Source: an uncultured Pelagibacteraceae bacterium (GTDB lineage: Bacteria > Pseudomonadota > Alphaproteobacteria > Pelagibacterales > Pelagibacteraceae). Taken from it: a stretch of DNA of 64,000 bases. Positions 7,098-47,243 of the stretch are shown here, piece after piece. The stretch covers positions 1 to 64,000 of the forward strand of contig CACJLZ010000002.1 of NCBI GenBank assembly GCA_902594395.1. The letters are read 5' to 3'. Each line of letters begins with the position of its first letter. Position 1 is the stretch's first letter. The notes beneath the pieces were generated by a model. The model saw only the letters and a program-made list of their open reading frames with translations. It was not told the DNA's origin and did not search any database. A program made the position numbers and the translations under genes.

Positions 7098-7391
7098 TTG
7101 GCTATTGTAAAATCAAAGCTTTTAAAACAACTTTCAGAAAATTATCCCAATTTTTTAAAAAAAGATTTGGAAAAATTCACAAATATTATTTTTAATGAAA
7201 TAAAAAAAACTTTAAAAAGAGGTGAGAGAATAGAATTTAGAGGATTTGGTGCATTTTCAACCAATATTCAAAAATCTCGGATATCTAGAAATCCTAAAAC
7301 TGGAGAAAAAGTAAATACACCAGAAAAAAAAACAATTCACTTCAAAATGTCAAAAGATTTGTTTAAAATTTTAAATGATGAAAAAAAATAA
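7098..7391 (+). CDS. ihfB: Integration host factor beta / HU-family protein
   Basis: KRGERIEFRGFGAFSTN...RNPKTGEKV; TTG start; directly after rpsA. Confidence 0.88.
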   Translation: MAIVKSKLLKQLSENYPNFLKKDLEKFTNIIFNEIKKTLKRGERIEFRGFGAFSTNIQKSRISRNPKTGEKVNTPEKKTIHFKMSKDLFKILNDEKK

Positions 7392-8052
7392 AGTATTTGT
7401 TGCATGTGATAGCACTAATATTTTAAAAATAAAAAAAATCATAAAAGAAACAAATAATAAAAAATTGAAAGTTGGATATAAGTTTGGTTTAGAATTTTTA
7501 AACTCAAAATATGGAAGAAGCTTTTTATCTAAGATAAAAAATAAAATAGTATTTGCAGATCTTAAGTTAAACGATATTCCAAATACTTGTTTATCAACTA
7601 TTAAAGCAATGAAAGATTTAAATATAAATTACTTAACTATTCATATTAGTTCCGGCTTAGAGGCTCTAAAAGCATGTAAAAAAATATCTGGAAAAACAAA
7701 ATTAATAGGTGTCACAACATTAACCTCTTTAGATGATAAATCCCTTAAAGAGATTGGTTACAACAAAAATATTAATAAACTTGTCTCACACCAAGTAAGA
7801 TTAGCAAAAAAGGCTAACTTAGATGCTATTGTATGTAGTGCAAATGAAATTAAGTTTGTTAAAAAATTCTTCAAAAAAGAAATAATAACCCCTGGAATAA
7901 GATTTAATACCAAAACAGATGATCAAAAAAGAGTTGTTACTCCAAAACAAGCATATAAGAACGGCAGTGATTGGCTTGTAATAGGAAGGCCTATAACCAA
8001 AGGCAATATAAGAAAAAATATTCAAACATTAATTGATCATTTAAGTCAATGA
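7378..8052 (+). CDS. pyrF: Orotidine 5'-phosphate decarboxylase
   Basis: VFADLKLNDIPNTC, TPGIRF, WLVIGRPITKG. Confidence 0.9.
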   Translation: MKKNKVFVACDSTNILKIKKIIKETNNKKLKVGYKFGLEFLNSKYGRSFLSKIKNKIVFADLKLNDIPNTCLSTIKAMKDLNINYLTIHISSGLEALKACKKISGKTKLIGVTTLTSLDDKSLKEIGYNKNINKLVSHQVRLAKKANLDAIVCSANEIKFVKKFFKKEIITPGIRFNTKTDDQKRVVTPKQAYKNGSDWLVIGRPITKGNIRKNIQTLIDHLSQ

Positions 8053-8666
8053 TCAAAAGTTTAAAAATTTGTGGGATCTCAGATCCTGAAACTTTGAATT
8101 ATATTTTAAATCATCCATATCCACCGAAGTTTATTGGTTTCATTACAAATTATAAAAAGAGCAAAAGATATGTCCAATATGAAAATTTAATAAATTTAGT
8201 AGACGTAAATAAAAAACAGACCAATTTTGTCTCAGTGCTTGTGAGTCCTACAAATGAATTATTAGAGAAAATCAAAGATCTTAACTTTGATTATTATCAA
8301 CTTTATGATGTTGACCCATTAAGAACTTTTGAAATTAAGAAAAAATATAAAATTAAGATAATTTCTGCACTTACAATTTCGGGTAAAGAAGATGTAGATA
8401 AATATAAAGATTATTTAGAAATTTCAGATATAATTCTTTTTGACTCAAAAGGTTATCATAGGTCTGAAAGCTTTGATCATGATTTATTAGAACAGGTCCC
8501 CAATGAAGTGAATAAAATGATTGCAGGAAATATTCAAATAGATGATATTCCTAAGTTTAAAAATAAAAACTTCATAATTGATTTATCTGGATCAATTGAA
8601 AATAATGAGGGAAAGAAAGATATTAATAAAATTGATAAATTATTAAAATTATTTGCAAAAACATGA
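8049..8666 (+). CDS. trpF: Phosphoribosylanthranilate isomerase, divergent
   Basis: KICGISDPETL N-term and trpFBA synteny; C-terminal motifs diverge. Confidence 0.8.
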   Translation: MIKSLKICGISDPETLNYILNHPYPPKFIGFITNYKKSKRYVQYENLINLVDVNKKQTNFVSVLVSPTNELLEKIKDLNFDYYQLYDVDPLRTFEIKKKYKIKIISALTISGKEDVDKYKDYLEISDIILFDSKGYHRSESFDHDLLEQVPNEVNKMIAGNIQIDDIPKFKNKNFIIDLSGSIENNEGKKDINKIDKLLKLFAKT

Positions 8667-9898
8667 AGCTTAAAAAAGGAATTCCAGTAATAGATCAAGG
8701 CAATAAACTTGGATTTTGGGGTGGAAAATTTGGGGGAAATTTTGTGCCCGAAACATTGAAAAAACCTATCGAAGATTTGGAAATTCTTTTCAACAAGCTC
8801 AAAAAAGATAATAAATTTATAAACGAAAGAGACAAATATTTTAAAAATTGGGTTGGTAGTCCTACTCGATTCATCAAATTAGAAAATTTAACTAAACATG
8901 TGGGTGGAGCTCAAATTTGGTCTAAAGTTGTATCTGATGCAAATGGAGGAGCACATAAAATTTATAATGCAACTGTTCACTGTTTACTTGCAAAGCGTTC
9001 TGGGAAAAAAATTATTTGTGGAGACACTGGTGCTGGCTATGCAGGTAAAATGTTGAGTATGGCAGCTAAAAAATTTGGTTTAAAATGTAAAATTTTCATG
9101 GGCGCAAAAGATATTCAAAGGCAGCAACCAAATGTAAAAGCTATGAAAAAAAATGGGGCCGAGGTCATTCCTGTATATTCTGGAAGTCAAACTCTCGTAG
9201 ATGCAGTCTCTGAGTGCATGCGATACTGGGTTGCGAATTGTGATAAAGTTGCCATGTGTGTTGGCAGCACCGTTGGTCCAGCTATATTTGTTCGCATCTG
9301 TGGATGGAGTACAAGTCAAATATCGAGAGAACTTAAAATTCAATTAATTAATGAATTTGGATCAGTTCCAAAAAAACTTAAACTTTATAATTGCGTTGGA
9401 GGAGGAAGTTCTAGTTTTGGGTTCTGGAATGAATTTATGGATTACGATAAAAAACAATGTGAATTTATTGGTGTAGAGGCTGGTGGACCTGCAAAAAGTA
9501 AAAAACATGCAGCGCCACTCACGTATGGATCTAAAATTGGAATACTTCATGGTGCTGCTCAATATGTTAATCAAAATACAGATGGTCAAATAGAAGAGAC
9601 TGAGTCAATTTCAGCTGGACTAGATTATCCTGGTATTTCCCCACTTCATTGTTTTCTTAAAGATACAAAAAGAGCTAGATACACTGCAGCAAGCGATGAG
9701 GAGGCTTTAAACGCTTATAAACTTGTAACGAAGTTTGAAAAATTAAGACCCTCCCTTGAACCAAGTCACGCTTTTTCAGTCGCGATAGCAGATTCAAAAA
9801 AATTAAGTAAAGATACAATAGTTGTAGTCAATAGTTGTGGTGATGCTTACAAAGATAGGGGTATTTTAGAGAAAAGATTAGGAAAAAAATATGTTTAA
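8663..9898 (+). CDS. trpB: Tryptophan synthase beta chain-like PLP enzyme, strongly divergent
   Basis: GKFGGNFVPETL, NGGAHKIYN (PLP Lys), DTGAGYAG, CVGGGSSSFG, ISAGLDYPGISPLH. Confidence 0.85.
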   Translation: MKLKKGIPVIDQGNKLGFWGGKFGGNFVPETLKKPIEDLEILFNKLKKDNKFINERDKYFKNWVGSPTRFIKLENLTKHVGGAQIWSKVVSDANGGAHKIYNATVHCLLAKRSGKKIICGDTGAGYAGKMLSMAAKKFGLKCKIFMGAKDIQRQQPNVKAMKKNGAEVIPVYSGSQTLVDAVSECMRYWVANCDKVAMCVGSTVGPAIFVRICGWSTSQISRELKIQLINEFGSVPKKLKLYNCVGGGSSSFGFWNEFMDYDKKQCEFIGVEAGGPAKSKKHAAPLTYGSKIGILHGAAQYVNQNTDGQIEETESISAGLDYPGISPLHCFLKDTKRARYTAASDEEALNAYKLVTKFEKLRPSLEPSHAFSVAIADSKKLSKDTIVVVNSCGDAYKDRGILEKRLGKKYV

Positions 9899-10691
9899 TC
9901 CAATTAGTTTTGCTTTTAAAAAAGCTAAAAGTGAAAATAGACCTGCTTTATTAACTTATACTGTAGCTGGAGATAGTTCAAAAAAACAATCATTAGAGAT
10001 ATTAAAATCAATTTCAAAAAAGGTTGATATATTAGAAATTGGTGTTCCTCATAACACTCCAGTTGCTGATGGAAGTCAAATTCAAACTAGCTCGTATAGA
10101 GCAATCAAAAATGGAATTAAAGTAAATGATATTTTTAAAATTGTAAAAGATTTTAAAAAATTTGACAAAAATAAACCAATTATATTGATGGGATACTATA
10201 ATATGATTTTTCAATATGGTGAAAACGAGTTTTTAAAAAAATGCAAAATTTCAGGAGTAAATGGATTAATAATTGTAGATTTGCCTTGGCCTGAAAATAA
10301 AAAGTTTACAACTAAATGTAAAAAAAAATCAATATTTTTTATTCAACTTTTATCTCCGACCACATCTAAAAGCAGGTTAAAAAAGATAATTAATGATTCT
10401 CATGAAATGATTTATTTTATATCTATGCTCTCTACTACGGGGGGGAAGCTTAAAGTTTCCTCCAAAGAAATAATGTCTAACTATAATAAAATTAAAAAAG
10501 TAAACTCAAAAAAAAATGTTGTGATTGGCTTTGGTATTACCGAAAAAACTATAAAATCTCTTAAAAAAGCTGATGGTTTAGTTGTTGGAAGTGCTATTTG
10601 TGAAGAGATAACAAATTCAATAAAAAAAAGACAAAATCCTGTCACAAATGTTTATAATGTCGTAAATAGATTAAAAAATAAAATTAAATGA
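9891..10691 (+). CDS. trpA: Tryptophan synthase alpha chain, divergent
   Basis: LEIGVPHNTPVADGSQIQ, GLIIVDLPWPEN, GFGIT, VVGSAI; follows trpB. Confidence 0.85.
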   Translation: MFNPISFAFKKAKSENRPALLTYTVAGDSSKKQSLEILKSISKKVDILEIGVPHNTPVADGSQIQTSSYRAIKNGIKVNDIFKIVKDFKKFDKNKPIILMGYYNMIFQYGENEFLKKCKISGVNGLIIVDLPWPENKKFTTKCKKKSIFFIQLLSPTTSKSRLKKIINDSHEMIYFISMLSTTGGKLKVSSKEIMSNYNKIKKVNSKKNVVIGFGITEKTIKSLKKADGLVVGSAICEEITNSIKKRQNPVTNVYNVVNRLKNKIK

Positions 10692-11623
10692 ACTGGATAA
10701 CAAAAATAATAAACGCTGGTGAAAAAATAAAAACTGCCATACATAAAAGAGCAACAAAAGAAGAAATTGCAAACAGTGATTGGACCAGCTGCTGTAAAGG
10801 ACCTATTTTAAAAAAAGATTTGGAAGAAAATCTTTGGGTGTGCCCTGAGCCTGGGTGTAAAAAACATCACAGAATAAGCCCAAAGCAAAGATTTGATATT
10901 TTATTTGGTAAAAATAATTATGAGATATTTAAAACTCCTATTCCAAAAGATGATCCTTTGGGATTCATTGATAGCAAACCTTATAAAGAAAGATTAAAAA
11001 GTGCACGTAAAAAAACAGGCTTAGAATGTAGTATGGTTGTTGCTGAAGGTTCTATAAATCAAATTAAAATTACTGCAGTTGCATCTGACTTTGATTTTAT
11101 GGGTGCCAGCATTGGAGCAGCAGAGGGTGAAGCTTTTTTGTATGCAGCTCAACATGCAGTAGATAATAAGCAACCGTTACTAGTGTGTGCAACAGGGGGC
11201 GGTATGAAAATGCAAGAGTCATCAATCTCATTATCTCAAATGACACGAACTACACTTGCAATTAATGAAGTTAAAGCTGCAGGTTTGCCTTACATAGTTT
11301 TGATGGCAAGCCCAGTTGCTGGAGGAATCACAGCTAGTTATGCAATGTTGGGTGATATTCATATTGCAGAACCTGATGCGCTAATTGCGTTTGCTGGAGC
11401 TAGGGTCATCCAAGGAACTGTAAAAGAAGAATTACCTGAAGGTTTCCAAAGAAGTGAGTATGTTCAAAAAACAGGTTTTATTGATTTGATTGTTGAAAGA
11501 AAAGACCTTGCTGAAAAAATTGGGATTTTAATTTCAATTCTATTAAATAAGAAACCTGTTATAAGCACTGAAGAAAATGAAACTTCAGAAGATAGTCAGT
11601 CAATTACAAAAGCTGCATCCTAA
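10688..11623 (+). CDS. accD: Acetyl-CoA carboxylase carboxyltransferase beta subunit
   Basis: GASIGAAEGEAFLYAAQHA, GGGMKMQESSISLSQMTRT, VIQGTVKEELPEGFQ. Confidence 0.95.
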   Translation: MNWITKIINAGEKIKTAIHKRATKEEIANSDWTSCCKGPILKKDLEENLWVCPEPGCKKHHRISPKQRFDILFGKNNYEIFKTPIPKDDPLGFIDSKPYKERLKSARKKTGLECSMVVAEGSINQIKITAVASDFDFMGASIGAAEGEAFLYAAQHAVDNKQPLLVCATGGGMKMQESSISLSQMTRTTLAINEVKAAGLPYIVLMASPVAGGITASYAMLGDIHIAEPDALIAFAGARVIQGTVKEELPEGFQRSEYVQKTGFIDLIVERKDLAEKIGILISILLNKKPVISTEENETSEDSQSITKAAS

Positions 11624-12842
11624 AGAAATAGATTTAAGTTTAGATCGTATAAAAATTCTTTGTGAAAAATTAGGTAATCCTCAGGACAAAATAAAAGCAA
11701 TATCAGTCGTAGGTACAAATGGTAAACAATCTACCATTAATGCAATTTTTTCAATTCTCAAAGAATCAAAATTGAAATGCAATGTTTATACGAGCCCTCA
11801 CATTCAAAAAATCAATGAGCGATTTGTTTTTAATAATAATATGCTTCATGATAATGAATTAATTGATCTTTTTAAAGAAGTTGAAAAAATAAATGATCAA
11901 AGTCCCTTAACTTTTTTTGAGGCTTTGACTGCTTGTTATTTCTATAAGGCTGCTCAATATCCCAATAATATTAATTTAATTGAGGCAGGTTTGTTTCATA
12001 GGTTTGACGCAACTAATATTCTAAAAGATAATTTAGCAAGTATTGTATGCTCTATTAGTAAAGATCATCTTGATTGGTTACCAAAGGATCAACAAACTAT
12101 TGAAAAAATTGTATTTGAAAAAACATCCTCTCTTTTAAATTCTAATATAATTGTATCTAAACAATACTCGGTTAAAACAACTGAGAGTATCAAAAAATCA
12201 ATTTCACAAAACTTATCTAATAAATTGTTTTTTAATGAAGATTATAGTTATTCTAATGGAGAAAATGGTTTTTTTTATTATGAAGATAAATTTGGTGGCT
12301 TAAAACTGCCGTTGCCAAATATTCTTGGACAATTTCAGTTAGAAAATATTTCAACAGCAATAGCAGCAATAAGACAGTTAAATTTAGAAGTTAAAGATGA
12401 TGATATAAAAAATGCAATTACCAAAATTGAGAGTATTGGCAGATTACAGGAAATAAAGTCTGGAAAAATTAAAGATCTAATCAAAAATAACCGGTTATTG
12501 TTAGATGGAAGTCATAATGAAGATGGCGCTAGAGTTTTAAATGAATATCTTCAAACTTTAGATTGTAATAAGCATTTTATCATAGGAATGATGTCTAATA
12601 AAAATCATGAAGAATACATTGGCCACTTTAAAGATATTTCGTCTCTAACCACTGTTGATATCCCTAATCAGCAAAACGCTATCAGTGGTAAAAAATTAAA
12701 AGAAAAATTTAGAAATATTTTAAATGTTAAATATGAAGAAAATGTTGAAAAAGCAATTAAAACACTATCACTTAAAGAAAATGATATTTTAATAATTACA
12801 GGATCTTTGTATTTAGCCGGCGAAGTATTAAACTTAAATTAG
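11577..12842 (+). CDS. folC: Folylpolyglutamate synthase / dihydrofolate synthase
   Basis: LHPKEIDLSLDRI, VVGTNGKQSTI, TSPHI, LLLDGSHNEDGA. Confidence 0.93.
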   Translation: MKLQKIVSQLQKLHPKEIDLSLDRIKILCEKLGNPQDKIKAISVVGTNGKQSTINAIFSILKESKLKCNVYTSPHIQKINERFVFNNNMLHDNELIDLFKEVEKINDQSPLTFFEALTACYFYKAAQYPNNINLIEAGLFHRFDATNILKDNLASIVCSISKDHLDWLPKDQQTIEKIVFEKTSSLLNSNIIVSKQYSVKTTESIKKSISQNLSNKLFFNEDYSYSNGENGFFYYEDKFGGLKLPLPNILGQFQLENISTAIAAIRQLNLEVKDDDIKNAITKIESIGRLQEIKSGKIKDLIKNNRLLLDGSHNEDGARVLNEYLQTLDCNKHFIIGMMSNKNHEEYIGHFKDISSLTTVDIPNQQNAISGKKLKEKFRNILNVKYEENVEKAIKTLSLKENDILIITGSLYLAGEVLNLN

Positions 12843-13190: not shown

Positions 13191-14627
13191 CTAGGCAATT
13201 TCATATTTCTTTTCAATAGACATAATAAAATCATTTATTTCTTCTAGTTTATTTAATTCATTTTTATCATCTCTTTTATCTGCTTGATCTCTCAAATAGT
13301 CGATTTCATTATATGCCATATTTACCGTTTGCCACTTCTCCTTGTTCTTACTTAGTATACGTCTAGCAATTTCGCTTTTAATATTTTTATATAAATCAAG
13401 TGGTAAAATTTGCGGCGCTTCCTGATAAATAATTTTTTGTCCAAACCAACTGCATCTTTTGTCTGTAAATTTATCTAGCATTTTCAACTTATCTTCCCAA
13501 GACGAGCTATGCCAGATTTTAAAAAGAGCAGTATCTTTATTAGGAATAAATTTTTCATACAAAGTCTCTTCAGGTAACAAATCTTCCTGGGTTTTAGTTT
13601 GCTCTTTTTCCTCTGCTGCCTCTCTATTTATAATTTGTATATTTTTGCAAAAATTTTCATTATTTCTGACCATTTGTGCTCTTTTTTTTATTGTTTCTAA
13701 ATCTAGGTCTGAATAGGGTTTTTGTTTTAAGGCAAACTCTTTATTCAAAATTACTGGAGCTTTATTGGTTTTTAAAACTCTTATAGCCTTAGGACTATAT
13801 TTTTTTAGTATATCTCTTAATTGATTTACTGATAAATTTAATAATGGTTCTGGATCTCTTCTCAAATCCCAAACATATCCCCACGATGCGTAAGACGGAT
13901 GAAAACAATGATTTGGATGTAGTGTGCTAGTGAGATACATCATATTTCTACCCTTAACATTTTCAAAAATAGAATATATACCCTCATTTTTTAAAAACGT
14001 TTCTACGCTTGTTTTAGTTGATGTTTTTAAAAATGTTTCCCAATTTTCTTTATGTTTATCTTTAATAATTCTAAGAATCTTTAGTGAGTTTTGCGCATCA
14101 ACGTAGGCAGTATGGCTTGCTGAAGTGTCAAAACCTTGTATTCTTGATAAAGATTCTAATGCTAAGCTTGGGTTTCCCGCCTCAGTTAATTCTGTTTTTA
14201 AAGTTTCAGAATTCAAGGTTTGAGCTGCCCTAGCTATATGTAAACCATCATGTTCACTGTTAGGTGATGAGTGAGTAGCGTAAGGATAACGGTTACCCTT
14301 AAAAAAATTGAAATGAAACATCCTTCGATCAAAATTTAAATTTGACCACCCCATAAACATTGCTGGTGCACATTTAGAGAAAAAATTTTCAACAGCACCT
14401 AAAAAATCATAATGTGAATAATTGCCTTTAGTTAATAAATCAATACTGGTTGAATTTACAAGTAAAGCCTTAGCACTCGGCACCTCACCTTCCGGCATTC
14501 TCCCTCTTATATTTAACTTTCCAATTTCTTTTAAATTTTTATCAACTACAACAGCCCCAACTTCAATTATGGATCCCCATATTGTTGAATTCGTAGTTTC
14601 GGTATCGTAAATTACAATTTTATCCAT
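13191..14627 (-). CDS. sbcB: Exodeoxyribonuclease I (SbcB/ExoI family)
   Basis: IYDTETT...EVGAV, GWSNLNFDRRMF, SHTAYVDAQ DEDDh motifs, 478 aa. Confidence 0.85.
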   Translation of the reverse strand: MDKIVIYDTETTNSTIWGSIIEVGAVVVDKNLKEIGKLNIRGRMPEGEVPSAKALLVNSTSIDLLTKGNYSHYDFLGAVENFFSKCAPAMFMGWSNLNFDRRMFHFNFFKGNRYPYATHSSPNSEHDGLHIARAAQTLNSETLKTELTEAGNPSLALESLSRIQGFDTSASHTAYVDAQNSLKILRIIKDKHKENWETFLKTSTKTSVETFLKNEGIYSIFENVKGRNMMYLTSTLHPNHCFHPSYASWGYVWDLRRDPEPLLNLSVNQLRDILKKYSPKAIRVLKTNKAPVILNKEFALKQKPYSDLDLETIKKRAQMVRNNENFCKNIQIINREAAEEKEQTKTQEDLLPEETLYEKFIPNKDTALFKIWHSSSWEDKLKMLDKFTDKRCSWFGQKIIYQEAPQILPLDLYKNIKSEIARRILSKNKEKWQTVNMAYNEIDYLRDQADKRDDKNELNKLEEINDFIMSIEKKYEIA

Positions 14628-45626: not shown

Positions 45627-46322
45627 TTAAAAATGGTTTTTAAGATTTTTTGAAAAAAAATAACTTGGCCCCATTTTTTTTTCAAAATAATACCCATGCT
45701 TAATTAAATAATCACTCAAATCTATCTCATTTTTTGGATTTAAAATCTCGATACATATAAGTTTAGGATTATAAAATTTTAGATTTATTGATTTGATTAC
45801 TTTTATATCTAATCCCTCTATATCTATATTTAAAAAATCAAATTTGTGATTTATCAAATTATTTATTGTTTTTGTTTCAACATAATAAGTTTTTTTTCTT
45901 AATTTATCACTATCAGATAATTTTAAATGATCTAGAGATATTGTGTTTAGTGGACTAAACAGATTTTCTATATAAACCTCAACTTTTTCGACCTTGTCAC
46001 TAATGGCAGCACATATATTTTTATCATTTGGTCTTAAGATATTAAACAAATCAATAGATGTTTGATTTAAATCTATGTTAGTTCCTTTCCATCCTTTTTT
46101 ATGAAGTAAATATGTGTTATTAAACTTAATTGGATGAAATGCACCAATATCTAAATACGTACCTTTGTTAATTTTATCTTTAAAAAATTCTATGATAAAA
46201 ATATCTTCACCACATTGGGAGTAACTTTTTTTCTTCAAAAAAAATTTTTCTAACCAAAATATTCTGAAAAATAAATAAGGTTTATAAAAAATACTGTCTT
46301 TATTTATGAATTTTTTAATCAT
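45627..46322 (-). CDS. FkbM family methyltransferase
   Basis: SQCGEDIFIIEFF, YLDIGAFHPIKFNNTYLLHKKGWKGTNIDLN, FLNIDIEGLD. Confidence 0.87.
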   Translation of the reverse strand: MIKKFINKDSIFYKPYLFFRIFWLEKFFLKKKSYSQCGEDIFIIEFFKDKINKGTYLDIGAFHPIKFNNTYLLHKKGWKGTNIDLNQTSIDLFNILRPNDKNICAAISDKVEKVEVYIENLFSPLNTISLDHLKLSDSDKLRKKTYYVETKTINNLINHKFDFLNIDIEGLDIKVIKSINLKFYNPKLICIEILNPKNEIDLSDYLIKHGYYFEKKMGPSYFFSKNLKNHF

Positions 46323-46335
46323 ATCAAAATTCTAA

Positions 46336-46425
46336 TGGCGGAGAGAATGGGATTCGAACCCATGAAAGAGTTTCCCCTTTACACGCTTTCCAAGCGTGCG
46401 CCTTCAACCACTCGGCCACCTCTCC
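46336..46425 (-). tRNA. tRNA-Ser (GGA)
   Basis: GGAGAGGTGGCCGAGTGG...CTTGGAAAG...long variable arm...GGTTCGAATCCCATTCTCTCCGCCA. Confidence 0.96.
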
Positions 46426-46433
46426 AATTAAAT

Positions 46434-47243
46434 CTAAATAATAAAATCATGGTACTTGCTTATATTCTTAAGAATATAATCTGGGAAATCTTCATTTAAT
46501 TCTACTACTTCATACTTATGACCTCTTTCAAAAAGATCTTCTTTATTTGCTATTTTTTTTTTAATAGTTTTTTCAGAACAAAATTTTTCATCAGAATATT
46601 CTGAGTGTGCAAAAGTTTTTAATTTGAGAGATATTTCTGCTACTGACATTATGTTATTAAAATGCCATCCAGCATTATGAAATATTTCAATATTTTTTTC
46701 TTTGTCAAATCTTAAAAAATTATATTTAAGGTTTTTTGTAATAACTTTTTGTCTCATAAAATCTATAGACTTCAAATTCTTTTTTTTACAAACTCTTGTA
46801 CCTTCCCAAGGTGTCTCGTGAGGATTAAAAATATTGAATTTATAATTGAAGCATTTTTGCAGAAATATTCCATATTTTTTATTTAGCTTAAAATTTTTTA
46901 ATAATTCTGGATTAATTATTTCATCTGGGTCAGAAAAAAAAATATAATCATCGGGATCAGCAAAATTTGTCTCTGAAAGTAGGAACTCCCTTTGGATTGC
47001 TTGGTTTTCCCAACGATTTGTATTTTTTGGAAAAGGTTTTTCTAATAAGGAATATTTTATTTTTTTTGCATCATAATAATCTTTCCAAACAAAATTTTTT
47101 TTCTTTTCTTTACCTGTATGATCAAATTTTGACTCACAAATTACAAAATAATCAACATGATTGGATAATATATTATACCTTAATTCAAACATAAAATTAT
47201 TATCAAAAAAAGTTATACAATCTAAAATTTTGTTTTTTACCAT
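46434..47243 (-). CDS. GT17-family (MGAT3-like) glycosyltransferase
   Basis: LDCITFFDNNFMFELRYNIL, FVICESKFDHTGKEK, DYIFFSDPDEIINP, HNAGWHFNNI. Confidence 0.82.
   Translation of the reverse strand: MVKNKILDCITFFDNNFMFELRYNILSNHVDYFVICESKFDHTGKEKKKNFVWKDYYDAKKIKYSLLEKPFPKNTNRWENQAIQREFLLSETNFADPDDYIFFSDPDEIINPELLKNFKLNKKYGIFLQKCFNYKFNIFNPHETPWEGTRVCKKKNLKSIDFMRQKVITKNLKYNFLRFDKEKNIEIFHNAGWHFNNIMSVAEISLKLKTFAHSEYSDEKFCSEKTIKKKIANKEDLFERGHKYEVVELNEDFPDYILKNISKYHDFII

Follow-up and report, generated by a model that had tools for sequence, protein, structure and literature searches.

The window, a stretch of 64,000 nucleotides, carries a gene for a tryptophan synthase beta subunit (TrpB) within a run of forward-strand genes (Table 1); its last 8 bases overlap the adjacent trpA. 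The genome is SAR11, its loci recurring at 92-100% identity in single-cell genomes and MAGs of Pelagibacteraceae. The window TrpB also matches solved TrpBs at the sequence level. An AlphaFold model (mean pLDDT 94.6) has TrpB of P. furiosus as its top Foldseek match (TM 0.92/0.96, rmsd 1.4). Against TIGR00263, the profile of canonical TrpB1, it scores 373.8 bits (E = 1e-111), which is 18.7 bits below the curated cut-off of 392.45; the scores of ordinary TrpBs from Pseudomonadota lie around 600-660 bits.

Table 1. Genes of the trpBA locus and codons of selected TrpB sites, in window positions
Feature	Positions	Strand	Remarks and basis
pyrF	7375..8052	+	conserved operon neighbour
trpF	8049..8666	+	upstream neighbour; tracks genome phylogeny, not trpBA
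trpB	8663..9898	+	SAR11-type tryptophan synthase beta subunit, 411 aa; ATG start, complete ORF, profile, model
K99 codon	8957..8959	+	PLP lysine (Salmonella K87), retained; residue number and alignment
D121 codon	9023..9025	+	site of catalytic Glu109; pattern match starting at 9023, alignment
Y126 and A127 codons	9038..9043	+	site of Gln114-His115 (substrate-carboxylate loop); alignment
V179 codon	9197..9199	+	site of Lys167 (alphaAsp56 contact); alignment
S250 codon	9410..9412	+	site of Asn236 (GGGSN phosphate loop); alignment
D394 codon	9842..9844	+	site of Arg379; alignment
trpA	9891..10691	+	co-altered partner; TIGR00262 208.7 bits (cut-off 102.35)
accD	10688..11623	+	downstream neighbour; tracks genome phylogeny, not trpBA
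folC	11577..12842	+	conserved operon neighbour

Identity as TrpB2 (TIGR01415), the alternative to TrpB1 and like it a fold type II PLP enzyme, was ruled out: the window protein reaches 94 bits where the cut-off is 518.85, is 25% identical to TrpB2, and goes with TrpB1 in a tree of 75 TrpBs. In that tree the SAR11 type is a single clade (100/100) on a stem of 1.03 changes per site, separate from TrpB2 and from the canonical TrpB of Alphaproteobacteria.

Changes at conserved TrpB positions

Residues are numbered below as in Salmonella TrpB, the alignment reference, whose sequence was checked letter for letter against 1k8x chain B. The motifs quoted in the preliminary description can all be read in the window protein, namely WSKVVSDANGGAHK (K99), DTGAGYAG (D121), GGGSS, NSCGDAYKD and GSTVGPAIFV. 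With canonical TrpB1 (that of Salmonella, E. coli and Caulobacter, alpha2beta2) the SAR11 protein shares the fold, the position beside trpA, the PLP lysine K87 in GGAHK, the D305-R141 pair, N145, E350 and the GGGS loop (G246-S249 of the window protein). It differs by E109D, Q114Y, H115A, N236S, R379D, K167V and R55S and by an altered KRED loop and GPHPYP motif; further changes read in the window protein are H82N, R77V, H195A, P196I, P198V, G380A and D381Y. Where canonical TrpB1 has Glu109 in ETGAGQH (58 of 58 sequences), the window protein has Asp121 in DTGAGYA.

The glutamate at position 109 is considered essential to the activation of indole, its carboxylate stabilising indole N1, and Q114 hydrogen-bonds with R148 in the closed state, which Q114 stabilises (PMC9512447). 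In the main motif type Q114 and R148 are lost together (Y114 with Ala or Ser at 148). Given the standing of Glu109 and the closed-state role of Q114, a lowered or altered TrpB activity is possible.

The canonical set (n = 58) comprised Salmonella, 26 alphaproteobacteria, the 30 best-scoring Pseudomonadota and the SAR11 genome G006, and holds 123 positions conserved at 97% or more, 38 of which are replaced in 133 SAR11-type sequences. Those sequences were chosen by their DTGAG motif, so Asp109 in 133/133 holds by construction; K167V, N236S and G310S, each likewise in 133/133, do not. Replacements are not enriched at the active site (7/26 active-site or interface positions, 31/97 other conserved positions; Fisher p = 0.81). 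The remodelling of TrpB is protein-wide, the active site included. The many active-site changes noticed in the preliminary description are thus real but not concentrated there, and some of the differences it drew from Salmonella belong to that reference, C377 and H280 being the rule in ordinary alphaproteobacterial TrpB. S377C was rejected as an oddity because Cys, normal for Alphaproteobacteria, occupies the position in 42 of the 58 canonical sequences.

Distribution and function of the SAR11-type TrpB

Only 47 of 148 Pelagibacterales genomes pass the TIGR00263 cut-off (101 fall below it), as against 190 of 199 Pseudomonadota genomes. A search of the order finds a full TrpB-type gene, one per genome, in 141 of the 148. 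The window type accounts for 134 of these 141, an assignment made by identity to the window protein (53-100%); direct reading of the residues covered about 60 of the 134, plus the loci on genome contigs. The remaining seven have other types: a canonical TrpB (633 bits) fills the corresponding operon slot in G006, and G027, G026, G024, G076, G143 and G065 have proteins 27-42% identical to that of the window. Among the 215 matching genomes of the class, none outside SAR11 carries a protein above 46% identity. The distinct TrpB subclass that had been suggested is therefore upheld, as a separate clade outside ordinary alphaproteobacterial TrpB1 that occurs in nearly all sampled SAR11. The search for a second, ordinary trpB that had been proposed with it found a single copy in the window's own assembly (541,625 bases, 55.5% complete) and no ordinary extra in complete relatives.

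Extra TrpB2-like genes turned up in only four genomes of the order search (L161-L164, in G103, G143, G105 and G018). They lie in genomes of two families, showed no neighbouring trp gene within the stretch read, and, unlike the SAR11-type TrpB, keep ETGAGQ and lie away from trpA.

The SAR11 trpB_1 was noted as a distinct cluster by Kagan et al. 2008 (PMC2395257), and that cluster is the same gene group as the SAR11 type here. The section consulted does not describe the residues, the change in TrpA, other TrpBA types or horizontal exchange; relative to it, the new elements are the remodelling at the level of residues, the joint change of TrpA, additional types at this locus and the exchange of both genes as a pair.

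SAR11-type trpB is under purifying selection (dN/dS = 0.022-0.044). Leaving aside the incomplete genome of the window, trpC and trpD score above cut-off in 17 of 17 tested SAR11 genomes (in G130, trpC is read as two overlapping frames). Artificial seawater that lists glycine, glycine betaine, pyruvate and DMSP as its organic nutrients, along with vitamins, supports growth of P. ubique HTCC1062 (PMC5069961), and Kagan et al. 2008 emphasise that it has a single trpB (PMC2395257). Because the gene is almost always the sole copy, has a low dN/dS, stands with ordinary upstream trp genes and occurs in a lineage that grows without added tryptophan, the SAR11-type TrpB is most likely a working tryptophan synthase, and we infer that it makes tryptophan with Asp in place of Glu109. 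The literature searched gave no kinetics or assays of a SAR11-type TrpB and no usable data on E109 mutants.

Serine plus indole to tryptophan stays the expected reaction, since this sole trpB keeps D305, R141, K87 and E350, the pathway leading up to it is ordinary and growth of P. ubique needs no added tryptophan. The same facts leave the earlier proposal of a shifted substrate specificity without support. They also bear on the stronger idea of a neofunctionalised TrpB, whose main reaction would use another nucleophile or donor (phosphoserine or threonine, for instance) with tryptophan as a minor product. That idea could draw on the change of Glu109 to Asp in every member of the subclass read, on the changed Q114/H115 carboxylate loop, and on engineered changes at the Glu109 site that shift nucleophile use (TmTyrS1, 8egy; PMC12727527). 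We regard it as highly improbable, given a sole trpB with an adjoining trpA and ordinary trpC and trpD in a tryptophan-prototrophic lineage, and unchanged residues for beta-elimination of serine (K87, D305 and R141).

The TSB-like proteins of eudicots offer another natural TrpB homologue altered at the Glu109 site. They have Ala, Ser or Pro there, Glu for D305, and a coexisting true TSB (PMC12727527); the SAR11 TrpB has Asp there, keeps D305, and is accompanied by no other TrpB. The marks of a TSB-like pseudoenzyme, no carboxylate at the site and a true TrpB alongside, are thus both missing from SAR11. That the SAR11 protein might synthesise nothing and merely activate TrpA to release indole, as the eudicot TSB-like does, would accord with the plant protein having lost the same glutamate as a key residue (E to A; PMC12727527). 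It is barely credible for a protein that retains a carboxylate, the PLP lysine and D305, in genomes with no second trpB to carry out the synthesis and a relative, P. ubique, that grows without added tryptophan.

TrpA co-change and exchange of the trpBA pair

The window TrpA keeps the catalytic residues E49 and D60, has Thr for alphaD56 and reads STTG for GVTG in loop 6. Both catalytic residues are kept in nearly all SAR11 members (D60 is Glu in G014), though the SAR11 protein is only 24% identical to Salmonella TrpA. In the Salmonella alpha-beta interface betaK167 and alphaD56 touch. Canonical pairs have Asp at alphaD56; the types of G026 and G027, where betaK167 stays, have Glu; genomes with betaK167V have Thr, Ala or Cys; and G065, with betaK167L, has Thr. 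Since alphaD56 is lost where betaK167 is lost, the separate case of G065 included, the joint loss has occurred at least twice on the tree, on both sides each time.

The gene order rpsA, pyrF, trpB, trpA, accD, folC is kept in the genomes compared (G136 and G069 showed no trpF between pyrF and trpB). Compared with other SAR11 genera, the window TrpB is 69-76% and TrpA 55-71% identical, at medians of 38-48% for neighbouring proteins; compared with G026, of the same genus, TrpB is 36% and TrpA 29% identical, at a median of 70%. Over 53 genomes TrpB and TrpA distances correlate with r = 0.93 (the gene lies beside trpA and co-evolves with it, as is usual for TrpB1), those of TrpB with rpsA, pyrF, trpF, accD and folC at r = 0.09-0.23, and those of rpsA with trpF at 0.84. 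Within the main type alone (46 genomes) the contrast is weaker yet present, 0.77 for TrpB-TrpA versus 0.31-0.43. In an RpsA tree genus 1 and family 2 each form a clade; the TrpB tree rejects both (AU p = 1e-12 and 8e-4). The clearest case is G062, where rpsA is 87% identical to its own genus versus 41% to others, and TrpB and TrpA are 86% and 82% identical to those of genus 6.

These sequence comparisons are best fitted by in-place horizontal replacement of the trpBA pair. A strongly constrained TrpB might account for some of the flatness in identity between genera, but not for the conflict between the trees. On this evidence trpBA behaves as a co-adapted, exchanged cassette. The alphaD56/betaK167 co-alteration, together with the correlated divergence and joint movement of the subunits, lends indirect support to the shifted partner specificity proposed earlier, and the covariation speaks for a possibly altered partner fit and allostery.

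A second TrpBA type occupies the same operon slot in the same genus (L141, L142, L143 and L160, of G024, G076, G143 and G026). It has the motif ESGAGQH(Y/F), Gln or Thr for D305 and Glu for TrpA D60, and clusters with the type of G027, a member of the other SAR11 family (100/99). A third (L150, of G065) has the motif ETGASMN, 27% identity to the window TrpB and a very long branch, and sits in an ordinary SAR11 operon slot (rpsA 92%). Contamination is an unlikely origin of these odd types, since they lie between SAR11-like rpsA and folC on one contig (92% and 93% in G065; G026 is a one-contig genome). A phage or viral source was also considered and set aside: no trpB turned up in viral_contigs, and phage records have only copies of at most 42% identity. 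Neighbouring genes vary in places as well: between the window and G005, pyrF is 41% and accD 80% identical, and in G024 accD is 44% and folC 31% identical, yet rpsA 76%.

A plainer account would be an ordinary TrpB1 that evolved fast along with an AT-rich SAR11 genome, its substitutions functionally meaningless. The lack of over-representation of active-site positions among the changes favours this, as do the many SAR11 neighbour proteins that are just 35-50% identical across genera. We find it rather doubtful: trpC and trpD stay ordinary in the same genomes, TrpB is among the most conserved proteins across genera within the subclass, and G006 retains an ordinary TrpB in the same slot. With TrpB so conserved between genera while the medians are low, a single ancient jump and then strong constraint seem to describe its history, rather than steady drift.

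Our preferred reading, which we hold with good confidence, is a divergent TrpB1-derived subclass that serves as the sole working beta subunit of SAR11, is paired with a co-diverged TrpA, and is exchanged with it as a cassette. In such an enzyme TrpA would split indole-glycerol phosphate through the conserved Glu49 and Asp60 and pass indole to TrpB, where serine would be activated on PLP (K99) to the aminoacrylate with the usual closure by R141 and D305. While the C-C bond forms, indole N1 would be stabilised by the carboxylate of the Asp that stands for Glu at position 109, the shorter side chain probably being fitted by local repacking (A108G, Q114Y with R148A, H115A). Communication between alpha and beta may now work in a rebuilt form that lacks the contact of betaK167 with alphaD56. 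Since each subunit would be matched to the other, trpB and trpA would be inherited and horizontally exchanged as one cassette within a fixed operon. Of this reading, the data show the sequence changes, the clade, the single copy, purifying selection and the joint change and transfer of TrpA and TrpB, from which the kinetics, the local repacking and the altered allostery are inferred. An extended version, in which the synthase is functionally re-engineered, its allostery wired differently and its preferred donor or nucleophile perhaps another one, and in which the cassette is freely exchanged and its divergent types selected for variety, seems unlikely.

Tryptophan synthase serves as a model enzyme in studies of channelling and allostery, and SAR11 is among the most abundant cell groups in the sea. 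The canonical set shows no variation at betaGlu109, betaLys167 and alphaAsp56; SAR11 appears to make tryptophan without any of the three, which suggests that nature can rework a textbook active site. SAR11 genomes provide a natural series at one locus, from canonical (G006) through partial (MAG, MFG and YNG motifs) to full (YAG), so that the residues needed in the bienzyme and the joint change of its subunits become directly testable questions. The SAR11 TrpBs are also new starting scaffolds for TrpB biocatalysis.

Variable genes elsewhere in the window

An Exonuclease I-like gene (Exonuc_X-T_C) at 13191-14627 on the reverse strand is 97% identical in G003 and only 43% in G005 (median 71%). 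At 45630-47243, also on the reverse strand, are genes for an FkbM-type methyltransferase and a family 17 glycosyltransferase, one on each side of a tRNA-Ser (46336-46425). In G003, a close relative with a median identity of 92%, the former is found at 37% and the latter is absent; this spot is likely a variable surface-sugar locus.
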